A DNA stretch of 64,000 nt. Origin: Polaribacter litorisediminis (GTDB taxonomy: Bacteria; Bacteroidota; Bacteroidia; Flavobacteriales; Flavobacteriaceae). The first letter of the stretch is position 1, and each line of letters starts with the position of its first letter. The notes beneath the pieces were generated by a model, which saw nothing but the letters and a program-made list of their open reading frames with translations, was not told the origin of the DNA and made no database searches. This document shows positions 11,037 to 27,042 of this stretch, one piece after another. The stretch lies in assembly GCF_019968605.1 (NCBI RefSeq), contig NZ_CP082966.1:2341001-2405000 (forward strand), read 5' to 3'. A program made the position numbers and the translations under genes.

Positions 11037-13292
<2,256 letters not shown>

Positions 13293-13408: not shown

Positions 13409-14050
13409 ATGATAAAAGTAATAATAATTGACGATGAAATTAATGCACAAATTGTATTGAAAAATACAATTGAGAGATATTTTCCAAATAAGTTCTCTGT
13501 AATATCTTTATGTAATTCAGTAAAACAAGGAGTTAAATCTATTAAAGAACACAATCCAGATTTAGTGTTTTTAGATATTCAAATGCCTGGTGAAAATGGT
13601 TTCGAGCTGTTTAAATATTTTAAGGTTATAAATTTTGAAGTGATATTTACAACCGCTTATGAAAAATTCGCATTAAAAGCAATAAAATGTAGTGCACTAG
13701 ATTATTTATTGAAGCCTATTAATCATTTAGATTTAGCAAGCTCTTTAAAACTTTTTGAAACGCGATATCAGCAAAATTCAGGACAAAAAAAATTGACCTT
13801 ATTATTAGAGAATTTAAATTTAGACAATCAAAATTCTTATAAAATAGCTTTTCCAACTATTGATGGTTTTGAATTAATTCATTCTAATCAGATATTATAC
13901 TGTAAAGCTGACAGTAATTATTGTTTGATTAAAAAAGTTGACGAGAGTATAATAATAGTTACAAAAACATTGAAATATGTAGAGGAATTAATGCCTGAAA
14001 AAAAATTCAAGCGTATCCATAAAACATATGTTTCAAATTTAAATTATTGA
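13409..14050 (+). pseudogene. LytTR-type response regulator, 5' part, interrupted by IS1595 element
   Basis: The N-terminal receiver domain is intact: acidic pocket IIDDE (D8, D9), phospho-acceptor D56 in LVFLDIQMP, and TTAYEKFALKA plus LLKPI (switch Thr and Lys). A LytTR DNA-binding domain begins near residue 150 and stops at residue 213, where the frame runs into the IS (the last Tyr codon and stop use IS bases). Joining the left copy of the 8-bp duplication to 15014 restores the frame and adds 37 residues to give a 250-residue protein. As it stands the DNA-binding domain lacks its last strands, so the product is probably non-functional or receiver-only. Confidence 0.9.
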
Positions 14051-15005
14051 GGTCAGTAGTTAGGAACATATAATTTTACTTTGATATATTTTTTCAGCTT
14101 TCACCATTCTTATTATCAAATTATTAAAAATGTTCTTTTTGCTATTTGAGCGATTAATTCGATAACAAAACTCATCAAGATATCTTTCGATGTTAAAATC
14201 GCTTACTGATGAATAGGTAGTTCTTATCCATGATTTTACCTGATGAATCATCGTGTGTATTGCCATAAAATTCTTTCCTTGATTACTTTCTATTTGAGTA
14301 ATATTATACTCTTCAATTAAAGGACGATAACCTCTCCACTTATCTGTGGTTATTTTTGCGTTTTTATCAATGTGTTTATCAAATATTGTTTTTAATTCTT
14401 TAGCTGAATAATTATCAATTTTCAGAGCATACATTCTTTTAATTTTACCCTTATCCGTTAATTCTACTGCGGTTACAATCTTTTTCTTCTTGCTATTATA
14501 ACTCCTACCTACTTTTCCTTTTTCCTTTCCTCCAATCACAAATTCATCAATATGAACCGTTCCTTTCATAGGGTGATTTTCACTAGATTTCATTGCTTCT
14601 CTAACTTTATGCATAAATAATCTTGCTGTTTTTTCAGTAACTCCAAAGCGAACTCCCATGTAGCTGGCTGATAAACTTTTTGTGGTGGTTGACATTTCAA
14701 AACACATAAAAAAGGCTTTTCGTAAACCAAACTTCACTTTATGAAATAGCGTGTTTGCTGATGCAGTTTCTGTATGACTGCATTTGTTACAAGTTCTTGA
14801 AAAGTCCTTTCGGATTTGACTCTTTGTATGCTTACATTTTAAGCAATTAAAGCCTAATTCCCATTTAAAATTTGCCAGATATTCTTTACAATTTTCATCT
14901 GTTTTAAACCGATCACTAAACTCTAGAAGGTTTTTCCCTGTAAATAAATTCATAATTTGCCTATTTTATTGACTCCTAAGATATGAAATTATCTACTGAC
15001 CTCAA
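14047..15005 (-). mobile_element. IS1595-family insertion sequence, 959 bp
   Basis: The terminal inverted repeats are TTGAGGTCAGTAG (14047-14059) and CTACTGACCTCAA (14993-15005). An 8-bp target duplication TTAAATTA is present at 14039-14046 and 15006-15013, the duplication size expected for IS1595 elements. The element carries one complete transposase gene on the minus strand. Intact ends, intact ORF and perfect duplication indicate a recent insertion. Confidence 0.95.
14060..14953 (-). CDS. IS1595-family (ISXO2-like) transposase
   Basis: A 297-residue protein with an N-terminal zinc ribbon (CLKCKHTKSQ ... CNKCSH), typical of ISXO2-type enzymes. A DDE-like catalytic core follows: GTVHIDEFVIGGKEKGKVG (first Asp), TTDKWRGYRPL (second Asp), and a C-terminal NIERYLDEFCYRINR stretch with the last acidic residue. 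It is complete and lies within 13 bp of the left IS end. It catalyses movement of the element interrupting the regulator. Confidence 0.93.
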   Translation of the reverse strand: MNLFTGKNLLEFSDRFKTDENCKEYLANFKWELGFNCLKCKHTKSQIRKDFSRTCNKCSHTETASANTLFHKVKFGLRKAFFMCFEMSTTTKSLSASYMGVRFGVTEKTARLFMHKVREAMKSSENHPMKGTVHIDEFVIGGKEKGKVGRSYNSKKKKIVTAVELTDKGKIKRMYALKIDNYSAKELKTIFDKHIDKNAKITTDKWRGYRPLIEEYNITQIESNQGKNFMAIHTMIHQVKSWIRTTYSSVSDFNIERYLDEFCYRINRSNSKKNIFNNLIIRMVKAEKIYQSKIICS

Positions 15006-15128
15006 TTAAATTATATAGTCCGATACAATAAAGCCTTAAAGGAAGTTGAACTAACTAACGGAGAAAAATTACCAGTTTCATTTAGAAAAGAGGAAGAATT
15101 TGTTAAAACTATATTACACAAAGAATAA
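15006..15128 (+). pseudogene. Detached 3' end of the LytTR response regulator
   Basis: Translated in the restored frame this reads LNY-IVRYNKALKEVELTNGE and ends SFRKEEEFVKTILHKE before TAA at 15126-15128. It is the missing end of the LytTR domain. The kinase gene's TTG start (15100) lies inside it in another frame, so the two genes originally overlapped by 29 bases. Confidence 0.9.
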
Positions 15129-18084
15129 TTTAATTTTTATTGTTTTACTGTGTTGTAATTTGAGTTACTCACAAATATTTCCTAGCAGAAACTATACTTC
15201 AGCTAAAGAGTTACCGAATAACGCTATTAGATCGTTATTTTTAGACAGTCAAAATTTTTTATGGATTGGAACTGAAAATGGAGTTGTTCATAAAGAGAAT
15301 AAAAAGTTTACTCATTTTTTTGAAGAGAATGGCTTAGCTATGAATAATTGCTGGGCAATTGCAGAAGACTCCTCTAAAAAAATGTGGTTTGGTAGCTATG
15401 GAGCAGGTTTGAGTATATATGATGGTCAAAGTTTTATTGTGCTCTCCAAAGAAAATGGATTAGTTCATAATGAAATTACTAAATTATTGCATTTTAACAA
15501 TAAAATGTATGTCGGCACAAGTGATGGTGTATCCGTTGTTGATATTAACAACTTTCAAATATTTTCTTCAAAATCTACCGAAAATAAACTTTTTAGAGTT
15601 TCATCATTTTTCGAGTATGATGCTAAAATTTACTGTACCACCTATAATTCAGGAACGTACCAGATTGTTCTGGATTCAGATAAAGTATCCCTTAAAAAAA
15701 TTAATAACAATCAATATATTTATGCTGCTTTTAAGAGTAATGATAGTATTTACATTAGTAATAAGGAGTATTTTACAAAATCAAAATTAACATCTTTCAT
15801 TTCTGATACAGCTACTTCGCCAACTTCTAAACAAGGCAACTCTATAATATGGGATTATTGTTTAACTTCAAAAAACAACATGTTTGCAGGCGCCTGGGGG
15901 ATTTACAAAAATGATGGAGGTTTATACGAAATTGTAAATAATAAGTTTATTAATCGAAATTCAGATTTTAATATTTCAAGTAAAGAAATAGTATCTCTGG
16001 AGTTTGATTCAAAACTGAATAAACTTTATGTTGGGTCTAAAGATACTGGTCTATATGAAGTTGATATGTCTTCTGTCATAAAATTTATTCCATCTGCAGA
16101 TATGGATATTTTAGATTATGCAACTTTCGGTGATACAAAAGCTTATTTGTATAAAGAAGTTTTAGTTTTGGAAGAAGGGACTAAAAAAATAAGATTAGAT
16201 AAAAATATTTTAAAAAAATGGGAGGAAAATTTTCTTAGAAATACGAAAATGAGTTTACCTAAACATGAAGATTATTTTTATGAATTAGATTATAATACAA
16301 GCGCTAAAGATATTAAGTTTTATGATTTAAAATATTATAACCATGCCTTCTGGTTAAACACTACTATCGGCGTATTTTCAATCAAAAAAGACGGAACGTT
16401 TCTAAGATATTTACCTTTACATACGGAAGAATTTAATTTTACGGCTCAAGGCAATTTCATAGAAACCACTCCATATGAAGGAGTTCGAGTTTATACAGAC
16501 TTAGATAAGTTTGACTACACCTATTTTAAAAAAGAAAAGAAGAACACGCCAACGATGATTGTAAACAGCCTAAAAAAAGGTGATAAAACCTATTTTTTAT
16601 CAATTTTTTCAGGACTTTACATTTGGCATAACAACCATTTTACTTCTTATCTAAATAACAATATATGGTTAGAAAAAAAACTGAAGCACATAACAAGCAT
16701 TGATAATAATATCGCAGTTTCAAATGAATCTGGAGATGTTTTTATTCTGAACGACGAACAAAGTTTTAATGTTATTAAAAAAATTGCGCGATCAAAAATT
16801 CAAGGAAATTCCATTTCCTTTTTAGAAAGTTATAATGGAAATTTATTCATAGGAACTGAGAAAGGGTTAACCATTTATAAGAATGACCGGTTTCTCTTTA
16901 TTGATGAAGAGCAAGGCTTGAAACAACCAATTTTAAGTTCAAAACTTGAAGGTGACAATTTATTTATAGGCAGTAAACAAGGGTATTATACTATTAACCT
17001 TAATACGATTGAGCAAAAGAAACCTCTTGTTACAAAAATTAAAGTGAATCAATTTAAAATTAATAATGAAAACATACCCCTTGATAAAATAATTTCTAAC
17101 GGTGAAGCGATACTAAATTATATTCAAAATACCGTTCTGTTAACCTTTTCAACGAATGCGCACCCATACCCAAATAAATTAGCATACCAGTATCAATTAA
17201 ATTCTAACAGTGAATGGACCGAAATTTCAAGTTCTCCTGAAATTTTTCTACCCTACCTATCTCCCAAAAAGTATCAAGTTGAAGTAAAAGTATCAGATTT
17301 AAGTACAGGTCTCCATTATTCAGAAGTTATTTTAAATATTAGTATTCTACCTCCTTTCTGGAAAAACTGGTGGTTTATGAGTGCAATAATCTTCTTATTC
17401 TCAATTGGAACTTATCTTTTCTATAAACATAAAGTAAAGCAAAACAAAAAAATAGAAGTAGAAAAAGGATTCATTAAGAATCGTATTGAAGAAGTTAAAA
17501 TGGAAGCGCTATTAGCTCAAATGAACCCTCATTTTATTTTTAATGCAATGAACTCCATTCAAAAATATATTTTGGAGAATGATCCAGATAGTGCTGTCTT
17601 ATTTTTGGGAGAATTTTCAAAATTAATACGTAAAAACCTAGACCATTGTACACGTCCATATATTTTTATGTATGAAGAAATTGAATATTTAAACTCATAC
17701 ATTTATGTAGAAAATAAGCGCTTTAATAATAGTGTTTTAGTTGAATTAACGATAGATGAATCAATTGATACCTATTCCATGGAAATTCCTTCTATGATTA
17801 TCCAACCTTTTATTGAGAATGTATTTGTTCATGCTTTTCCACCAAATGTTATAAATCCAAAATTGAATATTGATTTCAGTTTAACCCAAGAGAATATTTT
17901 GATTTGCACAATTAAAGACAACGGAGTAGGGATCTCAAAACCTTCAAAACAACTGCATAAATCAAAAGGAATTTTATTGATTAAAGAACGTTTAAAGTTA
18001 CTAGGCTATAATGTTAAAGAAACCTTATGCATTACCGCTTCAGAAAAAGAAGGAACGAGCATTGTTATTTCTTTAAAAATTTAA
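15100..18084 (+). CDS. Two-component regulator-propeller sensor histidine kinase (LytS/YehU type)
   Basis: A 994-residue membrane sensor. A TTG at 15100 gives a good signal peptide ending SYSQ; no nearby ATG does. Residues about 40-630 are beta-propeller (Reg_prop) repeats with motifs such as LWIGTENGVV and MWFGSYGAGLSIYDG. A Y_Y_Y-type domain (LAYQYQLNSNSEW) and one transmembrane helix (WWFMSAIIFLFSIGTYLFY) follow. The cytoplasmic His_kinase domain contains LAQMNPHFIFNAMNSIQKYI (phospho-accepting His), and an ATPase with FIENVFVHAF and DNGVGIS closes it. The kinase would sense an extracytoplasmic ligand and phosphorylate the adjoining LytTR regulator, now broken. A polysaccharide signal is common for this architecture but is not shown here. 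Confidence 0.88.
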   Translation: MLKLYYTKNNLIFIVLLCCNLSYSQIFPSRNYTSAKELPNNAIRSLFLDSQNFLWIGTENGVVHKENKKFTHFFEENGLAMNNCWAIAEDSSKKMWFGSYGAGLSIYDGQSFIVLSKENGLVHNEITKLLHFNNKMYVGTSDGVSVVDINNFQIFSSKSTENKLFRVSSFFEYDAKIYCTTYNSGTYQIVLDSDKVSLKKINNNQYIYAAFKSNDSIYISNKEYFTKSKLTSFISDTATSPTSKQGNSIIWDYCLTSKNNMFAGAWGIYKNDGGLYEIVNNKFINRNSDFNISSKEIVSLEFDSKLNKLYVGSKDTGLYEVDMSSVIKFIPSADMDILDYATFGDTKAYLYKEVLVLEEGTKKIRLDKNILKKWEENFLRNTKMSLPKHEDYFYELDYNTSAKDIKFYDLKYYNHAFWLNTTIGVFSIKKDGTFLRYLPLHTEEFNFTAQGNFIETTPYEGVRVYTDLDKFDYTYFKKEKKNTPTMIVNSLKKGDKTYFLSIFSGLYIWHNNHFTSYLNNNIWLEKKLKHITSIDNNIAVSNESGDVFILNDEQSFNVIKKIARSKIQGNSISFLESYNGNLFIGTEKGLTIYKNDRFLFIDEEQGLKQPILSSKLEGDNLFIGSKQGYYTINLNTIEQKKPLVTKIKVNQFKINNENIPLDKIISNGEAILNYIQNTVLLTFSTNAHPYPNKLAYQYQLNSNSEWTEISSSPEIFLPYLSPKKYQVEVKVSDLSTGLHYSEVILNISILPPFWKNWWFMSAIIFLFSIGTYLFYKHKVKQNKKIEVEKGFIKNRIEEVKMEALLAQMNPHFIFNAMNSIQKYILENDPDSAVLFLGEFSKLIRKNLDHCTRPYIFMYEEIEYLNSYIYVENKRFNNSVLVELTIDESIDTYSMEIPSMIIQPFIENVFVHAFPPNVINPKLNIDFSLTQENILICTIKDNGVGISKPSKQLHKSKGILLIKERLKLLGYNVKETLCITASEKEGTSIVISLKI

Positions 18085-18176
18085 CGATAAAACAAAGAAT
18101 CAATACGTTTACACATTACCTCTTTTTAGCTTTATAAAACTCCTTATTTTTAGGATTCGTTAGGAGGGAAAATGCT

Positions 18177-18248
18177 ATGAAAAAGATTTTTTCACTTAAT
18201 AAATTATTGACTACAACCCCAAGTTTATTTGAAAATGGCTTTATATAA
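18177..18248 (+). CDS. Possible 23-residue leader peptide
   Basis: ATG at 18177 to TAA at 18246-18248 encodes MKKIFSLNKLLTTTPSLF plus five residues. An unusually good AGGAGGG lies 9-15 bases upstream, rare in this phylum. It overlaps the start of the DUF6140 gene at 18235 in another frame, so it may be a coupling leader. No family match; it may equally be chance. Confidence 0.25.
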   Translation: MKKIFSLNKLLTTTPSLFENGFI

Positions 18249-18450
18249 AATTACTACCAAAAGGAAATTTGAAAATGGAAATTTATTGATTGACAAAGGG
18301 TTGTCAGTTCAAGTTTCATCGTTTGCAGTAAATCCATTGTATTATAATGAAGGAAATGATGTAAACAATGCTTTTCTAAGAATTTACGGAATAGACTTAA
18401 AACCACATGGGTTATTGAGTGCTACTTTTTTAGAGGTGGAGAAGGTTTGA
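18235..18450 (+). CDS. DUF6140-like small protein
   Basis: A 71-residue protein (MALYKITTKRKFENGN...). The pattern of a basic N terminus, LLIDKGLSVQVSS, an NNAFLRIYGIDLK core and a final FLEVEKV matches my recollection of the small Bacteroidota family DUF6140. ATG 18235 is chosen over TTG 18229. It has no signal peptide or membrane segment. A decayed tandem copy follows at 18503. It opens the accessory GTPase cluster. The function is unknown. Confidence 0.6.
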   Translation: MALYKITTKRKFENGNLLIDKGLSVQVSSFAVNPLYYNEGNDVNNAFLRIYGIDLKPHGLLSATFLEVEKV

Positions 18451-18502
18451 AAAAAAAGCCAGTATAATTTAAGATTTTACTACAAAACGTAATTTTACTA
18501 AA

Positions 18503-18716
18503 ATGGCTTTGTATAAAATAATCACAAATATAAAATCAAAAAAAAGGAAATTTATTGATTGCTAAAGGATTGCCAGTTCAAACTTCATCATTTGCTTAAA
18601 ACCTTTTACATGAAAAAGAAAAAGTACATTAAGCATTTTAAGAGTTCAGAGTATTGATTTTAAAACAGAGGTGTATTTAAATCCAAGATATTCAATTATA
18701 AAAAGGTACAACTTAT
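18503..18716 (+). pseudogene. Decayed tandem copy of the DUF6140-like gene
   Basis: The sequence starts ATGGCTTTGTATAAAAT, matching the start of the gene at 18235 closely. It continues with recognisable LLIAKGLPVQTSSFA text after a frameshift, then an in-frame stop. Similarity fades beyond about 18640. It is a duplicate that has lost coding capacity. Confidence 0.7.
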
Positions 18717-19160
18717 ATGACTTTAACACAAAACCCCAGCAGATCCTATAGTAGATTAGAAATTGACTTAGTATTCAGAGAATTAAAAGCGACCATGCAT
18801 AAAAAGGCATGTATTCGCGGCAACGGTATAGCATTATATCAAGATCTTTATACTGGGAAAACACTAAGAGGCGGAGATTCTTATGATTATGATCACATCC
18901 GTTCAGCAGAAGAAATTTACAACAAGTACAAATCTACTTTAACAGATGAACAAATTGCCTTAGTTGTCAATTGCCCTGAAAATGTTGGTGTTACTTTAAC
19001 TTCAATTAATAAATCCAAAGGTAAAAAAAGAATGGAAGACTGGTTGTCTAATTCATCAAATACAATAACGTATAGTATTGATTTAAAGGTAACTTTATTA
19101 AATCTAAAAAAAGCTGATCAAGGGATTATAAAAATTGTAAAAAAATTAAAAATAAACTAA
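18717..19160 (+). CDS. HNH-type nuclease-like protein
   Basis: A 147-residue protein with the layout of a compact HNH (beta-beta-alpha metal) domain: DYDHIRSAEE (D59, H60), CPENVGVTLTSIN with N89 and N98, then KSKGKKRMEDWL. This parallels the DHI...N...N-x-S-K-G...W pattern of HNH enzymes. The Cys pairs of zinc-bound HNH proteins are absent. YTGKTLRGG upstream matches the strand before the HNH core. It has no signal or membrane segment. It precedes the first dynamin-like gene by 16 bases, so it is probably co-transcribed. The expected activity is a metal-dependent DNA or RNA nick; in this context I infer the nuclease arm of a defence system. The first Asp/His pair and both Asn are present. 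Confidence 0.65.
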   Translation: MTLTQNPSRSYSRLEIDLVFRELKATMHKKACIRGNGIALYQDLYTGKTLRGGDSYDYDHIRSAEEIYNKYKSTLTDEQIALVVNCPENVGVTLTSINKSKGKKRMEDWLSNSSNTITYSIDLKVTLLNLKKADQGIIKIVKKLKIN

Positions 19161-19176
19161 CTAAAAACTAGAAATA

Positions 19177-20907
19177 ATGAAATCAATTAAAGAATATTCT
19201 GTGCACTTTGAGTCTATAATTAAAGAAACAGTAAAACAAGTAACTGAAAGTAATTTATTAACGGATGAAATCATAAATAAAGGAAATCAACATGCTCAAC
19301 AATTATTAGAAAGTATTCATCAAAATTTCACAATAAAAGTGCCAATAGTAGGGGATTTTAGCACAGGTAAAAGTTCTTTATTAAACGCTTTGATGAGTAA
19401 AGAAATATTACCTACAGGTATTAGACCCGAAACAGCAGTTTCATATGAGTTATACTACGCTCCAATAGAAGTAGCTGAATTATACAGAAATGGATCTGAA
19501 ATTTCTAATTGTAAATTAGAAAGTATTAAAGGTTTGGATGTGAAACCAGGAGATATTGTTAAAGTATATGTAGATAATTTAAAAATTAAAACTTTATATA
19601 ATGAAGGAATAACTTTAGTGGATATGCCTGGTTCTGATTCTGGGGTTGAAGCACATCAAAAAGCAATTCTAAGCTATTTAAAGGAAGGATCTGCCTTTAT
19701 TACATTAGTAGATATTGAACAAGGAAGCATAAAAGGAAGCAACTTAAAATTTATGCAAGAAATTCTTAGCTACAACTTGAGTTCAGCGGTATTGGTAACA
19801 AAGTGTGATAAAAAAACGGTTACTGAACAGGATAAAATTAAAAATTTCATAATTGAGCAAGTTAAACGTTACGATAAGAGCAATTCTTCAGTTGGAATGG
19901 TATCAGCAATGGACTCTAATATCGGAGATTTTGAAAAGGTAATTTCTGATTTAGATAGTGCAAGTTTATTTTATGACCGTTTTCAACCACTAGTTTCTGC
20001 ATTTATGAATCAATGGCAAGAATGGCTGCAATTAGAAGCAAATGTTATCTCTAAGAATAAAGAAGAATTGCAATTAAAATTAGCTAATCTAAAAGAAAGT
20101 GCTGAAAGAGCAAAAGAAGAAATATCATCTCAAAAAACAAGTCCTGAATTGGGTATGTTTGCTGTTGATGAAATTTTACAAAAAGTGAAAGATGCCCTAA
20201 AAAACAAAGCAAATACAATTGGTTCTTATATTCTACAAAATGATCAAGAAGGTGCAAACCGAGAAATTAGTGATACTGCTCGACCTATCCTTATTAATAG
20301 CCTGGAAGGCATCCAATCTAAATTGTCACATCAAATTTCCATAAACTTTGAGGATATAAATCAAAAATTAAAAGAGTTTGTAAGCACCTCTGATAAGACT
20401 TTGAATGTGGTTGATACAATTGGCACCACAATGAGCTCAATAAAAGATAAAATATCTAATACAAATAATTTAAACAAATATAGAGGAATAACAGCTATGA
20501 TCGGTGTAACAACATCATTTATAGCCCCTTGGCTGGAAGTGATTATTATTTTTGCTCCAGATATTTTAAATGCACTCTTTGGTAAAAAAGACGAACAAGA
20601 TAAATTAACTCAGGCAGTAAATGGTTTTGTGGATACTTCTATTCCTCAAATTATTAACAAATTAAGACCAGAAGTGGAAAAAGGAATTGAAGAACAAAGA
20701 CAGATAATTCTTAAAAATATTGAGGAAGGACTTGCTCAAAAAGTAAAAGAAGTAGATGAACGTATTACATTAGAATATCAAAAAATTGCTACAAATGAAG
20801 AAGAAAAGAATGAAAAATTAGTAGCAATCAATCTTTTACAACAAAATTTAAGAGAACTAGCTTTATTTGATATAAAGAGTGTTAATTCTGAGTATGTAAG
20901 TTCATAA
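19177..20907 (+). CDS. Dynamin-like GTPase A with hydrophobic membrane segment
   Basis: A 576-residue large GTPase. G1 is GDFSTGKSS (59-67), G2 is around T86 in RPETAVSYE, G3 is DMPG (149-152) and G4 is TKCD (208-211). Residues about 285-430 are helical, likely coiled coil. A hydrophobic stretch at about 437-469 (ITAMIGVTTSFIAPW then EVIIIFAPDILNALF) could be a paddle or membrane insertion. A charged helical tail of about 100 residues follows. This is the bacterial dynamin-like arrangement of GTPase head, helical stalk and membrane tip. The length is near that of E. coli LeoA. It is the first of three adjacent GTPase genes; the next starts 23 bases later. Confidence 0.85.
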   Translation: MKSIKEYSVHFESIIKETVKQVTESNLLTDEIINKGNQHAQQLLESIHQNFTIKVPIVGDFSTGKSSLLNALMSKEILPTGIRPETAVSYELYYAPIEVAELYRNGSEISNCKLESIKGLDVKPGDIVKVYVDNLKIKTLYNEGITLVDMPGSDSGVEAHQKAILSYLKEGSAFITLVDIEQGSIKGSNLKFMQEILSYNLSSAVLVTKCDKKTVTEQDKIKNFIIEQVKRYDKSNSSVGMVSAMDSNIGDFEKVISDLDSASLFYDRFQPLVSAFMNQWQEWLQLEANVISKNKEELQLKLANLKESAERAKEEISSQKTSPELGMFAVDEILQKVKDALKNKANTIGSYILQNDQEGANREISDTARPILINSLEGIQSKLSHQISINFEDINQKLKEFVSTSDKTLNVVDTIGTTMSSIKDKISNTNNLNKYRGITAMIGVTTSFIAPWLEVIIIFAPDILNALFGKKDEQDKLTQAVNGFVDTSIPQIINKLRPEVEKGIEEQRQIILKNIEEGLAQKVKEVDERITLEYQKIATNEEEKNEKLVAINLLQQNLRELALFDIKSVNSEYVSS

Positions 20908-20930
20908 CCTCAAATTAAATTCATAAAATA

Positions 20931-22841
20931 ATGCTTGGTGGAATAAAAAATAGAATTAGTAAAAACACCACTTTAAAAGAGGTTTTTATAGAAGTAAACC
21001 CATACTTGTATTCGTCTAGTAAAGCGTTAAAACTAATTGCAGGGATAAATGAACCAAAACAAATTACAAATAGTAAAACGAATGTATTTAATGATTTAAA
21101 CAACTATATATATAGTGATGACTTTGAGAATATTTGTAATGCTAATTTTAACTGCAAATTCGCTTATTACTTTCGCAATCAATACGAAGTAATGAAACAG
21201 GATGTCCTTTCCTCTAAAGATGAGGATTGGACAAAAATAGTTTTAGGGGGTGAATTTTCAGCAGGTAAATCAAGTTTTTTAAATTCATTACTTTGCGAAG
21301 AGGATGAGGTTGAATTTTTACCTGTTTCAGAAAAGCCTACGTCTGTAATTCCTACCTATATTTATTGTAGTAAAAAACAGAAAATGCAATATGTAATAGG
21401 AGAGAATAAACAGAATGGAAAAATGCTATTATCTCTTCATGCACTTTTAGCCTTAGGTCACGAATTTGAAAGAAAATATAAAATTAGTTTAGGGGCATTT
21501 TTGAATAAACTTATTATTCAACAACCAATAAAACACAATTTTTTAAATGATGTTATGTTTATCGATACTCCAGGTTACAATAAGGAAGATGGGGAGTCAA
21601 AAATAGATCAAAACACGGCGAAAAATGCTGTGAAAAATGGAGAAGTTTTATTTTGGTTGATTGATGTTGTTGCAGGGACGGTGAAAAAAGAGGATTTAGG
21701 TTTTATACGTGAAAATTTTAATAGAGATAAACCAAAAGTAATTATTTTTAATAAAGCTGATAAGGTATCTTCTAGTGAAATATTAAAAATTATTAAACAA
21801 TCAGCTATAACTTTGAAGGCTAAAAATGATAATTCTATCATAGATATAGTCGCTTATTCTTCTCATGAAAAACAAATATTAAAATCTTATAGAAGTAATA
21901 AATCTTGGAAAGAAATTTTTGAGAAAGTAAAATCAAAAGCTCAGAAAAAGAAAGCTGAACAAGGTTTTAAAGAATCTTTACATGAACACAAAGAGTGGGT
22001 AACCATGGAAACAAATAATAAAGTTAAAGAACTAGACTTAAAAATTAAAGCCTGTAACAATAGTATTATCGATTATAATAATGAAAAAGACATTGATTTT
22101 ACAAACACAAAACGTGAGATTAATTATTATTATCCTAAACGAGCATTTGAGCTTGATAACCTATGGACTAAGTTCCAAAATATATTAGAAAGGGAATTAG
22201 TTTGGATTGAAAAAGTAGGTTTTTTAAATAATAAAGAGAATTTAAATAGATTGAGAACCTCTTACAATGAATATAGTGCCTATAATCGTGAAGTTTCAGG
22301 AATTTCAAATCGATTATTTGAAGAAAAAATAAACAGCATAGACAAATATATAAGAGCAAAAGAAAAAGAAAAGACAGAAGTAATAAATCATCTAATAAAA
22401 GAGAGAGAACTCAACAAGAAAAGTATTCATAAATTAAATGACGACTCTAAAAAATTCCATGAAATGATTAATGATATTGAATTTTTATTGAAAAAATGTA
22501 TTAGAAAACTAAATGAAAAAAAATCAGAAAGTAATTTTTCTCACTTGCGTAATATTGATGTTGTAAAAAAAACTAAAGATATTTTTGATTGCGTTACAAA
22601 TAATGATTTTGATGGCTTTTTAGATTGTCTTTCTAGAAAAACTGAAATTAGTAAATTAAAAAATAATAAAGGTTACAATATACTTTCCTGGGCGGTATTG
22701 CATAAGAAATACGATATGGTTTCTGTATTAATGCCAAAAGCAAGACGTTTGATACAACGAAAAGAAAATCAAATTCTTTCTGCTTTAGAAATTGCAGAAG
22801 GAAATATGGACAAAATAATGATCAATCTTTTAACAAAATAA
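20931..22841 (+). CDS. Dynamin-like GTPase B with ankyrin-like C-terminal tail
   Basis: A 636-residue protein. About 100 residues precede the GTPase head, which has G1 GGEFSAGKSS (106-115), G3 DTPG (212-215) and G4 NKAD (274-277). Two long, strongly charged helical regions (about 330-540) look like a coiled-coil stalk. The last 85 residues (CVTNNDFDGFLDCLSRKTE ... NNKGYNILSWAVLHKKYDMV) resemble two or three ankyrin-type helix pairs, an unusual end for a dynamin-like protein and probably a protein-binding module. No clear membrane helix is seen, so it may depend on GTPases A or C or on the membrane protein at 25054. It is separated from its neighbours by 23 and 22 bases. Confidence 0.82.
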   Translation: MLGGIKNRISKNTTLKEVFIEVNPYLYSSSKALKLIAGINEPKQITNSKTNVFNDLNNYIYSDDFENICNANFNCKFAYYFRNQYEVMKQDVLSSKDEDWTKIVLGGEFSAGKSSFLNSLLCEEDEVEFLPVSEKPTSVIPTYIYCSKKQKMQYVIGENKQNGKMLLSLHALLALGHEFERKYKISLGAFLNKLIIQQPIKHNFLNDVMFIDTPGYNKEDGESKIDQNTAKNAVKNGEVLFWLIDVVAGTVKKEDLGFIRENFNRDKPKVIIFNKADKVSSSEILKIIKQSAITLKAKNDNSIIDIVAYSSHEKQILKSYRSNKSWKEIFEKVKSKAQKKKAEQGFKESLHEHKEWVTMETNNKVKELDLKIKACNNSIIDYNNEKDIDFTNTKREINYYYPKRAFELDNLWTKFQNILERELVWIEKVGFLNNKENLNRLRTSYNEYSAYNREVSGISNRLFEEKINSIDKYIRAKEKEKTEVINHLIKERELNKKSIHKLNDDSKKFHEMINDIEFLLKKCIRKLNEKKSESNFSHLRNIDVVKKTKDIFDCVTNNDFDGFLDCLSRKTEISKLKNNKGYNILSWAVLHKKYDMVSVLMPKARRLIQRKENQILSALEIAEGNMDKIMINLLTK

Positions 22842-22863
22842 GCAATTTAATTTATAAATAATA

Positions 22864-25050
22864 ATGGTAAAAAATAATATTTTTTCAGAACTAAATGATA
22901 AAATAACCAATTTAATAGATACTACAGAGGTTGATAGTTTGTATATAGATGGTATTTATAGATTAAAAGATGAATTGCCTAAAATAGTTCAAGCAGAAAA
23001 AGACTTAATATCGCAAGGTAAAACAATGCGTATTGGTATTATTGGTCAAGTTAAATCTGGGAAATCCTCATTTTTAAATGCGCTCCTTTTTAAAGGTAAA
23101 GATTTACTGCCAAAAGCATCTACTCCTATGACCGCGGGATTAACTGTAATTAGTTATGATAAAGTCCCTAAATTTAAAGTAGAGTATTACTCTAAAGATG
23201 ATTGGAGCATTGTTGAAAATCAGGCAAGACAATACGACGCTATTTACAAAGAAGCTAAAAGTTCCGGTCAATTTGAAGATGAAAGAGATATAGTGGAAGC
23301 AACAAAAGAGAGAGCTGGAGATTTAATTTGTTCATCTCATGAGTTAGTTCAAAAATGCGGTGTTTCTGCTAAAAGATGTATAGGTAAAAAACCCTTAGAA
23401 GAAACCTTAAATTCTATTGATGATTTACAAGGACGCTTAAATCAATTTGTCGGAGCTAAAGGAGAGTTTACTTCTGTTACAAAAACGCTTTATTTGTATT
23501 TACCCGAAGAAGGGTTAAAAGGAGTTGAGATCGTTGATACACCAGGTGTAAATGACCCAATTGTTTCTAGAGAAGAACGAACTAATGAGTTTTTACGTTC
23601 TTGTCACGGAGTTTTTTTACTAAGTTATACAGGTCAGTTTTGTACAAATACAGATTTAACTTTTTTAAAAGAGCGTGTGTATGATCAAGGGATAAGTTCA
23701 GTAGTGGTTTTAGGTAGTAAATTTGACTCTGGATTGATTGATATTGCAAGGACTGCAGACGGTGATTTGGAATATGCTATTGATTATTTATCAGATTCAC
23801 TAAAAGTTGGTTTGAAAGAAGCTTTTGAAAAGAAAAATTTGAGAAATGAACTTCCAAAACTTGATTGTACTTCAGGACTTTGCTATAGCTTATATCATAA
23901 GCCTAAAAATGAATGGGATGAAAACGAAGCTCATATAGCTAAATTATTAATTAAAAATTATCCAGATATCGGTGAAAATAGAGAATGGTTTAGCCTCCTT
24001 GGTAATATTGAAGAAATAAAAGAAAATTATATTGAAAAGGATTTTAAAAGTAATAAGGAACTCATAATTACCGATAGATACAAGGATTTCGTTGAAAATA
24101 ACAGAACTAAAATATTAAACACTATTTCAGAAACTAAAAGTGATCTAGTAGATTACTCTAAAAAAATTAATTCGTTAAATAGTGATAACATTGTAAATCA
24201 GAAAAATCAACGTTTAAATGTCGAAAAATTTGGAAAAAAGTCATTAAATATTATCAATCGTTCAATAAAAAACTTGAATGCTTTTCCTAAAAAATTTTCA
24301 AACAAATTGACTTATGATAGTTTTAACCATGGAACTTATTTAGTGCCTAAAAAATTTAAAATAGAACAATATAGTGGTTATTGGCTCAAGCCAAACAGAA
24401 ATTGTTCTGTTAGCCATGAAGTTGTTGATTCAATAAAATTAAAAGAGATTTTAACTAAATATTTAGATTCTAATTTAGAAAAGGCTTTCAACAAATGGAG
24501 TAAGTATTTTTCTAGTAAAGGGCCTTTTGTTAGCTCTCTTAAAAACACAATTACAGATCTCTTGAAAACAGATGATTTTAATGGTATAGATCCTGAAATT
24601 ATACAAGAAGTGTTATTGGATTCTTTAACGGATATAGACCGATGCGCTGATTTATTTTCAAAAGTTAAAATTAAAGATTTTTACAATGACAGAATTAGTA
24701 GAATAAAGACATCTACTAGAACTTGGGGTGGATATTTTGAAAATAAAAGTGATAGTCCTGAACTTATAATTGACGGTCTAAATGCATCAGAGAGAGATAA
24801 TTATTTTAATGACGTAAATAAAATCATAGAAGAATATAAAGCTGAAATTACGAAGGAAATATCAGTTCAGAAAGAAGATATTGGTAGAATATTAATAGAA
24901 ATGAAACGTTTATTTAATGAGAATATTGGTCAGAAATTTGAAGAAGTAACTGCAAAATATGAACAAATTTTAAAAGATAAGGAATCACGTATAAATGATA
25001 TCGATGCTAGTATTAGTAAATTAGAAGAAATTGAAGAAATATTTAATTAG
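22864..25050 (+). CDS. Dynamin-like GTPase C
   Basis: A 728-residue protein. G1 is GQVKSGKSS (61-69) with TPMTAG as G2, followed by a 120-residue insertion before G3 DTPG (225-228). The G4 position reads SKFD (285-288) where TKxD or NKxD is usual. The C-terminal half is charged and helical, ending in a long coiled coil (DKESRINDIDASISKLEEIE). Two Tyr/Trp-rich segments near 505-530 could touch lipid, but there is no obvious transmembrane helix. It resembles the YjdA/CrfC and Leo groups of bacterial dynamin-like proteins in layout. The next gene starts 3 bases after its stop. Confidence 0.82.
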   Translation: MVKNNIFSELNDKITNLIDTTEVDSLYIDGIYRLKDELPKIVQAEKDLISQGKTMRIGIIGQVKSGKSSFLNALLFKGKDLLPKASTPMTAGLTVISYDKVPKFKVEYYSKDDWSIVENQARQYDAIYKEAKSSGQFEDERDIVEATKERAGDLICSSHELVQKCGVSAKRCIGKKPLEETLNSIDDLQGRLNQFVGAKGEFTSVTKTLYLYLPEEGLKGVEIVDTPGVNDPIVSREERTNEFLRSCHGVFLLSYTGQFCTNTDLTFLKERVYDQGISSVVVLGSKFDSGLIDIARTADGDLEYAIDYLSDSLKVGLKEAFEKKNLRNELPKLDCTSGLCYSLYHKPKNEWDENEAHIAKLLIKNYPDIGENREWFSLLGNIEEIKENYIEKDFKSNKELIITDRYKDFVENNRTKILNTISETKSDLVDYSKKINSLNSDNIVNQKNQRLNVEKFGKKSLNIINRSIKNLNAFPKKFSNKLTYDSFNHGTYLVPKKFKIEQYSGYWLKPNRNCSVSHEVVDSIKLKEILTKYLDSNLEKAFNKWSKYFSSKGPFVSSLKNTITDLLKTDDFNGIDPEIIQEVLLDSLTDIDRCADLFSKVKIKDFYNDRISRIKTSTRTWGGYFENKSDSPELIIDGLNASERDNYFNDVNKIIEEYKAEITKEISVQKEDIGRILIEMKRLFNENIGQKFEEVTAKYEQILKDKESRINDIDASISKLEEIEEIFN

Positions 25051-25053
25051 AAA

Positions 25054-25731
25054 ATGGAAAATAAAGAATTACTAGAATCATTAAATAGCGTAGCCGAAGT
25101 TCTAATAGCAAAAATTGAACAAAAAAAAATAAAAGAACCAGTAACTTCATTTATTAATACTAAAGAAGAAGTAAATATCGAAAATATAAATATTATTAAA
25201 ATTATAATAGGTGGTTTGGTTACAGCAATTGTAGGATGTGGTATTGCCTATTTTACAAATGGTAATTTAATATTGTATTCATTTATTGGAGCTTTCATAG
25301 GTGTTATTTCATCATATTTTTCTCAAAAAAAGAAACAAAATTCAGAAACTGATTCTAACCAAACCTCTGTAGATTATGATCAATATAAAAATGTGATAAT
25401 AAATGATATTCGTAATGTAAATAATGAAATTAGGGATGAGTGGGAAATAGCTATGCAACTTTTAAATGATAAACAATCTGCTCAAATAAATCAGATGCCC
25501 TGGCCATTAGAACAAAAACAATTAGCGCTAAACGAAACTCTTATTTATAAGTCTTTAATTATTTCAGATTACCATTATACAGATGCAATTGAAGATTTAG
25601 AGATTAATGAAAATTTTTCTAATAATATAAATCAATTATTCACAAAATGGAAAAATGGTATTATTGAAATAATTAATAATACTAAAAATGAACAATGGGA
25701 AACTTATTATTCAAAAATTTATATTAGTTAA
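25054..25731 (+). CDS. Small membrane protein with two adjacent helices
   Basis: A 225-residue protein. Two hydrophobic helices at about 50-90 (IIKIIIGGLVTAIVGCGIAY and LILYSFIGAFIGVISSYF) form a hairpin, with a short charged N terminus and a 130-residue soluble C-terminal domain on the same side. No enzymatic motif is recognised. It starts 3 bases after GTPase C and closes the cluster. Its place suggests a membrane anchor or effector pore that works with the three GTPases; that is inference from position only. Downstream (25732-25878) is short intergenic DNA. Confidence 0.65.
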   Translation: MENKELLESLNSVAEVLIAKIEQKKIKEPVTSFINTKEEVNIENINIIKIIIGGLVTAIVGCGIAYFTNGNLILYSFIGAFIGVISSYFSQKKKQNSETDSNQTSVDYDQYKNVIINDIRNVNNEIRDEWEIAMQLLNDKQSAQINQMPWPLEQKQLALNETLIYKSLIISDYHYTDAIEDLEINENFSNNINQLFTKWKNGIIEIINNTKNEQWETYYSKIYIS

Positions 25732-25878
25732 AGTATATAAATGCAGCTTGAATCTTAAGTAACTGAGTAAAAAAATAAAACTTTACCCTTAAAAAGGTTT
25801 TACCAACCATTTTTGACCAATAAGCCAAAAAGAGATATAGCAGGTGCAATAGGTACAAAGATAATTTTCCCCAAAAAT

Positions 25879-27042
25879 TTATTTACTCGCAAATAATTTA
25901 ATATCATTTGCAGAAACTTCTTTTTCGCCTAAAATCATTAATCGCTCTACAACGTTTCTTAACTCTCTAATATTTCCTGTCCAATCATATTTTTTTAGAA
26001 GATGAATGGCTTCTGTTGAAAATACTTTTTTAGGAACTCCTTGTTCTTTTGATATTTTTTCAGTAAAGAAATCTACTAATAAAGGAATATCTTCTCGCCG
26101 CTCATTTAAAGCAGGAACTTTAATTAAAATAACGGCCAACCTATGATATAAATCTTCTCTAAAACGACCTGCAGCAATCTCTTTTTTTAAGTCTTTGTTT
26201 GTCGCCGCGATTACTCGAACATTTACTTTAATATCTTTATCCGAACCAACTCTAGATATTTTACTTTCTTGCAAAGCACGCAAAACTTTTGCTTGCGCAG
26301 ATAAACTCATATCCCCAATTTCATCCAAGAAAATAGTACCGCCGTTGGCAGCTTCAAACTTTCCTGCTCTGTCTTTATTTGCTCCTGTAAAAGATCCTTT
26401 TACATGTCCAAACAATTCACTTTCTATTAATTCAGATGGAATTGCAGCACAATTTACTTCAATCATGGGGGCTTTAGAACGATCTGATTTTTCGTGCAAC
26501 CAATGCGCAACAAGTTCTTTACCTGTGCCGTTTGGCCCCGTAATTAATACTCTTGCATCTGTTGCCGCAACTTTTTCGATAATTTCTTTGATGTGACTAA
26601 TTTCAGCACTCTCACCAATCATCTCGTAATTCTTGCTAACTTTTTTCTTTAACCGTTTATTTTCTACGATCAATACTTTGGTATCTAAAGCATTTCTTAC
26701 TGTATTTAAAAGACGATTTAAATCTGGTGGTTTCGATATGTAATCAAAAGCGCCTAAACGCATAGTGTTCACAGCCGTATCTAAATCTCCATGACCTGAA
26801 ATCATGACAATTGGAATTTCTGGTTTTATCTTTTTGGCTTTCTGTAATACCTCTACACCATCCATTTTTGGCATTTTAATATCGCATAAAACCAAATCGT
26901 AATCATTATCTTTAATCATTTCTAGCCCCAACAAACCATCTTCTGCCTGTTCTACCTTGTACGCGTCATTTTCTTCAGAAATAATTTTTGATAAAACTCT
27001 TCTAATAGCCGCTTCATCTTCTATAATTAATATTTTTGACAT
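25879..27042 (-). CDS. Sigma-54-interacting response regulator lacking a Fis-type HTH
   Basis: A 387-residue protein. Receiver domain at about 3-115 with phospho-acceptor Asp in VLCDIKMPK. AAA+ sigma-54 activator domain at about 145-370 with Walker A GPNGTGKE, the GSFTGA sigma-54 contact loop and a Walker B in GGTIFLDEIGD. The protein ends at about 387, just after the AAA+ lid, and has no C-terminal helix-turn-helix, whereas NtrC-type regulators run to about 450. Similar HTH-less forms occur in Bacteroidota. It would activate sigma-54 promoters without strong site-specific DNA binding. No partner kinase is adjacent; mscS lies 5 bases upstream in the same operon. Confidence 0.88.
   Translation of the reverse strand: MSKILIIEDEAAIRRVLSKIISEENDAYKVEQAEDGLLGLEMIKDNDYDLVLCDIKMPKMDGVEVLQKAKKIKPEIPIVMISGHGDLDTAVNTMRLGAFDYISKPPDLNRLLNTVRNALDTKVLIVENKRLKKKVSKNYEMIGESAEISHIKEIIEKVAATDARVLITGPNGTGKELVAHWLHEKSDRSKAPMIEVNCAAIPSELIESELFGHVKGSFTGANKDRAGKFEAANGGTIFLDEIGDMSLSAQAKVLRALQESKISRVGSDKDIKVNVRVIAATNKDLKKEIAAGRFREDLYHRLAVILIKVPALNERREDIPLLVDFFTEKISKEQGVPKKVFSTEAIHLLKKYDWTGNIRELRNVVERLMILGEKEVSANDIKLFASK

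Follow-up and report, generated by a model that had tools for sequence, protein, structure and literature searches.

A candidate mobile, modular membrane-GTPase defence locus with three dynamin-like proteins in Polaribacter litorisediminis

Introduction

Bacterial dynamin-like proteins (DLPs) have been described in several arrangements. The 2:2 Cj-DLP1/Cj-DLP2 tetramer of Campylobacter jejuni (structure 5OWV) tethers membranes, and general membrane repair has been speculated as its role (PMC6104087). Eleos, or LeoA-LeoBC, is an operon of two different DLPs; in leo mutants the vesicle cargo is reduced to about half (PMC4159319). The DLP DynA of Bacillus subtilis, which confers phage resistance (PMC8844932), consists of two DLPs fused in one protein (PMC6104087). 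The DO-GTPase conflict systems join a GTPase switch to exchangeable effectors, with zinc-ribbon and two-transmembrane (2TM) partners (PMC7159879), and SspE couples GTP hydrolysis to DNA cleavage in defence (PMC13251355). The present analysis concerns an island of Polaribacter litorisediminis (assembly GCF_019968605.1, contig NZ_CP082966.1), located in a stretch of 64,000 nucleotides at positions 2,341,001-2,405,000 of the forward strand, referred to as the window. Five tandem plus-strand genes of this island, g1 to g5, encode an HNH-type protein (g1), three DLPs (g2, g3 and g4) and a membrane protein (g5); g2-g3-g4-g5 are termed the quartet, and loci of other genomes carry an L number.

The closest solved relatives are BDLP and the Campylobacter proteins, where one chain of each type is likewise encoded by neighbouring genes: both 5OWV chain A (1.7e-18) and BDLP 2J68 (7e-18) are found with the g4 family profile (A1), and g2 matches chain C (2.4e-8), 2J68 and mitofusins. 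However, Cj-DLP1/2 comprises two DLPs only, whereas the window has three, with g3 separating g2 from g4; these two are directly adjacent in L029, L032 and L035. Cj-DLP1 also has a 119-residue N-terminal assembly domain that g4 is without (PMC6104087), position 13 of A1 aligning to residue 111 of the 5OWV chain and the G1 motif of g4 lying at residue 61. The sections consulted of that source describe no ankyrin DLP, g5, HNH or DUF6140 protein for the pair.

An assignment to Eleos, similar as an operon of different DLPs, has been ruled out: (i) the window has three complete DLPs instead of two; (ii) g2 scores 30.8 bits on LeoA over residues 26-86 only, against 481.5 and 307 bits for the LeoA proteins of L098 and L115; (iii) g3 and g4 have no LeoA match; and (iv) no match of g2, g3 or g4 is listed at E 1 for LeoBC, LeoB or LeoC. 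A distant triad member in L059 reaches 29.2 bits on LeoBC. In contrast to DynA, the window DLPs are separate proteins, and on the NCBIfam model for DynA, whose cut-off is 1600, g2 reaches 22.6 bits. The DO-GTPases belong to a different GTPase class, with no match listed for the window proteins at E 1; the word dynamin is absent from the main text of the survey of GTPase-centric systems (Kaur et al. 2020, eLife, PMC7159879). SspE, set beside the window by description only, is a phosphorothioate-dependent single effector. The open-licence literature, covered mostly through titles, yielded no account of a set of three DLPs that includes an ankyrin DLP.

Conservation and spread of the quartet

The genes g2-g3-g4-g5 form a conserved unit, and the HNH gene lies outside that unit. 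The comparison covered 80 DLP loci, the best 80 of 178 confirmed in a scan of species genomes with the g4 alignment. These were not sampled at random, several of them lie on short contigs, and L011 and L021 come from one assembly. Open reading frame (ORF) calls in all neighbourhood comparisons are mechanical. Within 10 kb, all three DLP types are present in 64 loci, g4 with g3 in 8, g4 with g2 in 2, and g4 alone in 6. The order g2-g3-g4-g5 is complete in 16 of the 18 loci L005-L022, counting L020, where g3 is split into two ORFs, and L007, counted through a g5-family search; the other two, L013 and L017, are truncated where their contigs end. Gaps within the quartet are mostly -52 to +100 bases there, and a g5 family member occurs in 17 of the 18 loci, which are labelled as Flavobacterium, Bacteroidales families, a Lachnospiraceae metagenome-assembled genome (MAG) and an alphaproteobacterial MAG. 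The distance matrices of g2 to g5 correlate with r 0.80-0.95 over 15 sets, and for each pair none of 2000 permutations was as high.

An earlier note, made from the window sequence alone, had proposed that all five genes act as one multi-GTPase defence system. Three DLPs and a membrane protein, co-conserved in order and with correlated divergence, uphold the multi-GTPase part of that proposal. The fixed set of five is ruled out: at E 1e-5, g1 has no match in any of the 18 loci L005-L022, and across all 80 DLP loci the search gave nothing but a distant HNH relative in L053.

The three GTPases carry, as the same note had stated, complete G1 and G3 motifs, and G4 is intact as well (G1/G3/G4: GDFSTGKS/DMPG/TKCD in g2, GEFSAGKS/DTPG/NKAD in g3, GQVKSGKS/DTPG/SKFD in g4). 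Each protein has a single Dynamin_N stretch, in every case above the curated Pfam cut-off. Aligned relatives (16, 17 and 19 rows for g2, g3 and g4) keep the three motifs, with the exceptions of L021, deviating in all three DLPs, and of L009 and L018, deviating in G4 of g2. The claim that the DLPs are not recent duplicates also stands: g2 and g3 share 24% identity over 200 residues and the other pairs give matches of 51 and 52 residues, so that the proteins are alignable over parts of the GTPase region only, which rules out recent duplication.

A DUF6140 gene accompanies the quartet in 11 of the 18 loci L005-L022, in 14 copies that all lie on the cassette strand; five of these are at most 50 bases upstream of g2 or overlap it. 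The gene is missing in L007, L013 and L017, all at contig edges, and in four further loci considered below.

Insertion of the island into an otherwise empty site

A catalase gene and an NtrC gene stand 12.6 kb apart in the window, and this interval contains, in order, a response regulator, an IS1595 element, a histidine kinase, DUF6140, the HNH gene and g2-g5; no further ORF of at least 80 residues was found in 14000-25878 beyond these. Recomputed ORFs are identical to those of the earlier note, with gaps of 16, 23, 22 and 3 bases between successive genes from g1 to g5. Catalase and NtrC genes are neighbours in seven of eight regions from sister species of the genus, 0.55-0.82 kb apart by tblastn ends, and the catalase is absent from the eighth. 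None of the eight regions has an island gene at E 1e-15, and the NtrC gene is core, being present in 45 of 45 good genomes. The computation thus shows the island as an insertion into an otherwise empty site. That such a block stands between genes adjacent in the sisters is the strongest evidence for a joint arrival or a joint retention of the two-component system, DUF6140, HNH and the quartet.

The island genes are rare as well. Five Dynamin_N matches are present in the P. litorisediminis genome, three of them being g2, g3 and g4. Among 58 genomes of the genus, full-length g3 occurs in this genome only, and g4 was found in one of 296 genomes of its class, with three candidates scored per genome. 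The DUF6140 protein is the single match in its own genome; within the class, 4 of the 296 genomes sampled encode one. This rarity and the empty site in sister species rule out a core housekeeping role and support an accessory, horizontally acquired island. Scans for sigma-70 promoters and terminators gave results at or below shuffle level, and the promoter pattern that we take to be of Bacteroidetes type has four matches in the 64 kb, against 6.67 expected, with none in the island.

The HNH gene and its exchangeable neighbours

The HNH gene belongs to a separate, exchangeable frame and not to the DLP unit. Besides the window, 21 loci with g1 relatives have been compared, including a shortened copy (L124) and a pseudogene (L125); L116 and L119 come from one genome. 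Seven of them have a GTPase on the same strand, no more than three genes away from the HNH gene, and these GTPases are of different kinds. In L098 and L115 the HNH gene directly precedes LeoBC and LeoA (7e-92 and 1e-144 in L098; 1.4e-86 and 9e-92 in L115), in L116 and L121 it precedes AIG1/DUF697-type GTPases, and in L114, L117 and L122 the neighbours are small GTPase-like proteins, weak by Pfam in the last two. A 171-residue P-loop protein beside the HNH gene in L172 and large P-loop proteins in L176 were not counted as GTPases. Control stretches contained one GTPase-like ORF in 293; this control is small, drawing on the eight sister regions, on the parts of the window beyond the island and on the outer ends of 15 HNH loci. 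The GTPases found in the HNH loci are themselves among its GTPase references.

Regulatory genes recur around the HNH gene too. WYL-family regulators occur near it in 10 of the 21 loci (L099, L114-L116, L121, L122, L172-L175), their identity resting on one Pfam match and mutual homology of the ten proteins. A propeller histidine kinase lies upstream in six (L099, L113, L118, L120, L121, L125) and DUF6140 nearby in five (L093, L099, L122, L172, L173). Altogether, 17 of the 21 loci have a GTPase, a WYL regulator, a propeller kinase or DUF6140, and none of the four is present in L119 (at a contig edge), L123, L124 and L176. The quartet locus L005 shares its WYL type with L116 (2e-117) and an 83-residue zinc-ribbon header with L121 (9e-43), that is, with loci where the HNH gene precedes AIG1-type and AIG1/DUF697-type GTPases, respectively; the same frame thus appears with a different GTPase module. 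Since other genomes pair parts of the frame with other GTPase modules, the probable role of HNH is that of a nuclease arm which the adjoining module licenses. These neighbourhoods speak against the idea, since dropped, of HNH as an unrelated neighbour.

Genus g112 has g1 relatives in 14 of its 378 genomes, and the family in 6 of 397, P. litorisediminis included; from named relatives, g112 is taken for Flavobacterium and the group of the window for Flavobacteriaceae. In the same genus, DUF6140 was found in 17 of 259 genomes at 20 places and precedes many different modules (18 contexts). A WYL-family gene lies within three genes in 8 of these contexts and an AIG1-like GTPase in one, a 558-residue protein with a weak g1 match (1.3e-5) is encoded in L202, and four contexts (L201, L204, L208, L209) share a family found near the cassette in L006, L011 and L014. 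No mention of DUF6140 was found in the open-licence literature.

An unlikely explanation of such variety is that HNH and DUF6140 serve to exchange the cassettes of a variable locus or to maintain it, with the quartet merely as current cargo and no functional coupling. It would account for the HNH gene having many different neighbours, with no GTPase adjoining in 14 of the 21 loci (coupling of HNH to a GTPase is hence not obligatory), for DUF6140 standing before many different genes and for the decayed second DUF6140 copy of the island. However, GTPases are enriched near HNH over the control, the 16-base gap between g1 and g2 suggests co-transcription, and in the 11 quartet loci DUF6140 is co-directional with the quartet without any HNH gene.

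Several side observations concern these neighbourhoods. In L173, L174 and L175, from different genomes, related membrane-protein and WYL genes flank the HNH gene (by eye), and the genes between WYL and HNH differ or are missing, which looks like a hotspot. In L125 (9583-16273), the HNH pseudogene is preceded by a propeller histidine kinase gene and by one for a zinc-ribbon protein of the 83-residue type, as in a decaying frame. LeoBC of L115 (10434-12860), directly behind the g1-type HNH gene, has a match starting at residue 182, so it carries a long N-terminal extension. Mutually homologous proteins of 194-227 residues, reminiscent of uracil-DNA glycosylases by eye, recur near DUF6140 or the DLP cassette (L006 13779, L011 9594, L014 13327, L094 9230, L201, L204, L208 and L209).

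Partners of the triple-dynamin set in other genomes

In several Firmicutes contigs and one Synergistales contig the order is g2-g4-g3, followed by a protein of about 730-920 residues, and g2-g4-g3 operons are carried by three plasmids. The Escherichia coli plasmid operon L126 (NZ_CP148279.1, 10174-17777) continues with an 829-residue protein annotated CFI-box-CTERM; it is present in 5 of 5426 complete E. coli genomes, always on plasmids. On a Pseudomonas aeruginosa plasmid the operon lies behind a WYL gene and near EH-signature and helicase genes, a pair that we take to be Zorya-like, and near integrases. In Vibrio renipiscarius (L034, 4956-8618) a patatin phospholipase (3.3e-27) is fused to a g2-type DLP, next to a TerB-domain protein and two further DLPs; of the four long g2-type proteins, Pfam was applied to this one only. 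A Lachnospiraceae locus (L059, 12047-16266) combines the DLP triad with a HerA/DUF87 ATPase, a WHH/colicin-DNase protein and DUF6985, the last two looking like a toxin-immunity pair. In L053, PADLOC families PDC-M40B and PDC-M09A stand beside the triad; the PDC-M40B member is a 555-residue protein with the HNH motif (4.5e-46), and g1 matches the same model (1.5e-6), although the model has 547 positions with further regions and g1 only 147 residues. Judged by sequence relationships, the patatin fusion, the plasmid operons and the HNH gene before Eleos support conflict functions for these relatives and partners.

Two other roles have been weighed against this evidence. In the first, which we consider improbable, the locus would be a membrane-repair or stress cassette without dedicated anti-phage role: the two-component system would sense damage done by antibiotics, by pore-formers or to the envelope, and the DLPs would then tether membranes and fuse them. 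The membrane-tethering Cj-DLP1/2 and BDLP as closest solved relatives, the general repair speculated for the former and the propeller histidine kinase within the island speak for it. Nevertheless, the patchy distribution, horizontal insertion and a partner exchange that involves phospholipase, nuclease and Eleos modules fit a conflict role better. Still less credible is an outward-acting vesicle or export machinery, in line with the part in releasing outer-membrane vesicles that has been proposed for LeoABC; such a machinery might deliver a nuclease cargo. The reduced vesicle cargo of leo mutants and the toxin-like end of the L059 cluster would agree with export, but g1 is without a signal peptide by eye and no recognised secretion genes are found among the island ORFs.

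Two genes directly behind g5 have been observed, one for a Sel1-repeat protein with a phosphopantetheine-attachment domain (L010, 8287-9444) and one for a 614-residue protein (L016).

Proposed function of the locus

With about even confidence, we read the island as a mobile, modular membrane-GTPase locus of defence type, built from a core and a frame. The core is g2-g3-g4-g5, whose three DLPs would most likely assemble into one hetero-oligomer. By homology, g2 and g4 may pair like Cj-DLP2 and Cj-DLP1, g3 would join as a third subunit whose ankyrin repeats bind proteins and act as sensor or adaptor arm, and g5 may dock the complex at the inner membrane. Once an infecting phage or damage to the envelope is sensed, GTP loading would drive assembly on the membrane, and the resulting remodelling could seal or sacrifice the cell, thereby blocking phage release. 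The frame consists of the LytTR two-component system, here cut by an insertion sequence (IS), DUF6140 and the HNH protein.

A wider proposal, held more tentatively, is that of a combinatorial immune locus in Flavobacteriaceae and relatives, in which a regulatory and nuclease frame (a LytTR two-component system or WYL regulator, a DUF6140 or zinc-ribbon header, and HNH) takes up interchangeable GTPase modules: Eleos, AIG1/DUF697, small GTPases or the triple-dynamin quartet. HNH would be its common nuclease arm, and the triple-dynamin set with the ankyrin DLP a distinct, multi-phylum, membrane-acting defence family. If so, defence dynamins would occur not only as pairs (Leo, DynA) but also as a three-part machine, in some lineages with a protein-binding ankyrin arm, spread over several phyla and plasmids, and DUF6140 would become a marker for such loci. 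One HNH family before Eleos and unrelated GTPase modules would then lead to a testable idea of how GTPase-based immunity is coupled to DNA cleavage or cell death.

Several results weigh against a defence locus of this kind. Concerning the frame, the response regulator is truncated in this strain, two thirds of the HNH loci have the HNH gene without an adjoining GTPase, as stated above, and DUF6140 is absent from four quartet loci with long flanks (L005, L012, L014, L019). Concerning HNH itself, no curated profile matches the g1 family above cut-off (GH-E is found in 4 of 40 members, at best 0.018 and at 0.07 in the window), its structure model is poor, with a predicted local distance difference test (pLDDT) score of 66, and g1 has no match in the plasmid collection. 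A SLATT-like effector role of g5 has no clear support, as the SLATT profile matches 1 of 17 family members, at E 0.089 and below the cut-off. Viral contigs, scanned with g4 and with DUF6140, yielded no confirmed relative, and the flanks of ten DLP loci gave scattered PADLOC matches only, each family occurring in at most 2 of 81 proteins (25 of 49 families listed, without a matched control).

Features of the island genes

The coordinates of the features are collected in Table 1.

Table 1. Island features and bordering genes in the window, with the supporting matches.
Feature	Position	Strand	Evidence
Catalase gene	11049..13292		
LytTR response regulator, cut within the LytTR domain at the IS edge	13409..14050	+	Pfam Response_reg 5.4e-20, LytTR 2.4e-7
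IS1595/ISXO2-type insertion, transposase 14060-14953	14046..15006	-	Pfam DDE_Tnp_IS1595 2.2e-19
Histidine kinase with two-component-regulator propeller (Reg_prop) repeats	15100..18084	+	Pfam His_kinase 3.5e-19, Reg_prop 1.4e-12
DUF6140 protein, 71 residues	18235..18450	+	PF19637 E 2.5e-20
Decayed second DUF6140-like copy, with stops and frame changes; end approximate	18503..18680	+	Three-frame translation by eye
g1, HNH-type protein, 147 residues	18717..19160	+	Family motif; PADLOC PDC-M40B 1.5e-6; Pfam GH-E 0.07
g2, DLP, 576 residues, Cj-DLP2/mitofusin-like GTPase region	19177..20907	+	Dynamin_N 5.6e-22
g3, DLP, 636 residues, N-terminal extension of about 100 residues	20931..22841	+	Dynamin_N 3e-14; G1 at residue 107
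g3 C-terminal ankyrin-repeat region, about residues 545-636	22563..22838	+	g3 family profile A6
g4, DLP, 728 residues, Cj-DLP1/BDLP-like	22864..25050	+	Dynamin_N 5.7e-22
g5, membrane protein, 225 residues, two hydrophobic segments then soluble tail	25054..25731	+	Hydrophobicity and family alignment
g5 hydrophobic segment, residues 48-64	25195..25245	+	
g5 hydrophobic segment, residues 72-88	25267..25317	+	
NtrC gene	25879..27042		

The HNH call of the earlier note holds at the level of the motif: D-x-[DE]-H..[EQ]N-x8-N-x2-K-G is present in all 40 aligned members of the g1 family and in none of 1102 other ORFs, the pattern having been written with the family in view; as said above, a curated profile does not confirm it. 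Its spacing is what we take to be the HNH pattern of the HNH/ENDO VII superfamily. As to the beta-beta-alpha metal fold of that superfamily, comparison of the structure model found no HNH nuclease among the 33 matches listed, which says little at a pLDDT of 66, and the one match of the g1 profile in the PDB below E 0.1, an aspartic proteinase at 0.032, is taken as chance.

The ankyrin region of g3 has been identified through the family profile, where positions 559-671 match ankyrin chains with a whole-chain E of 1.8e-64; the window protein alone gives Pfam Ank_5 at just 0.048. In the soluble tail of g5, W130, I145 and Q214 are invariant in 17 rows. Neither the g5 profile nor the DUF6140 profile has a PDB match at E below 0.1. 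The DUF6140 gene, which lies inside the coordinates of the earlier note but was missed there, scores 72.7 bits on PF19637, with a cut-off of 27.

The IS element has its terminal inverted repeat at 14046-14071/14981-15006 and, by eye, an 8-bp target duplication. It leaves a response regulator of 213 residues, versus 239 in L099 and 249 in L121, with a LytTR match spanning model positions 4-61 of 98; because of this truncation, the strain may regulate its island differently.

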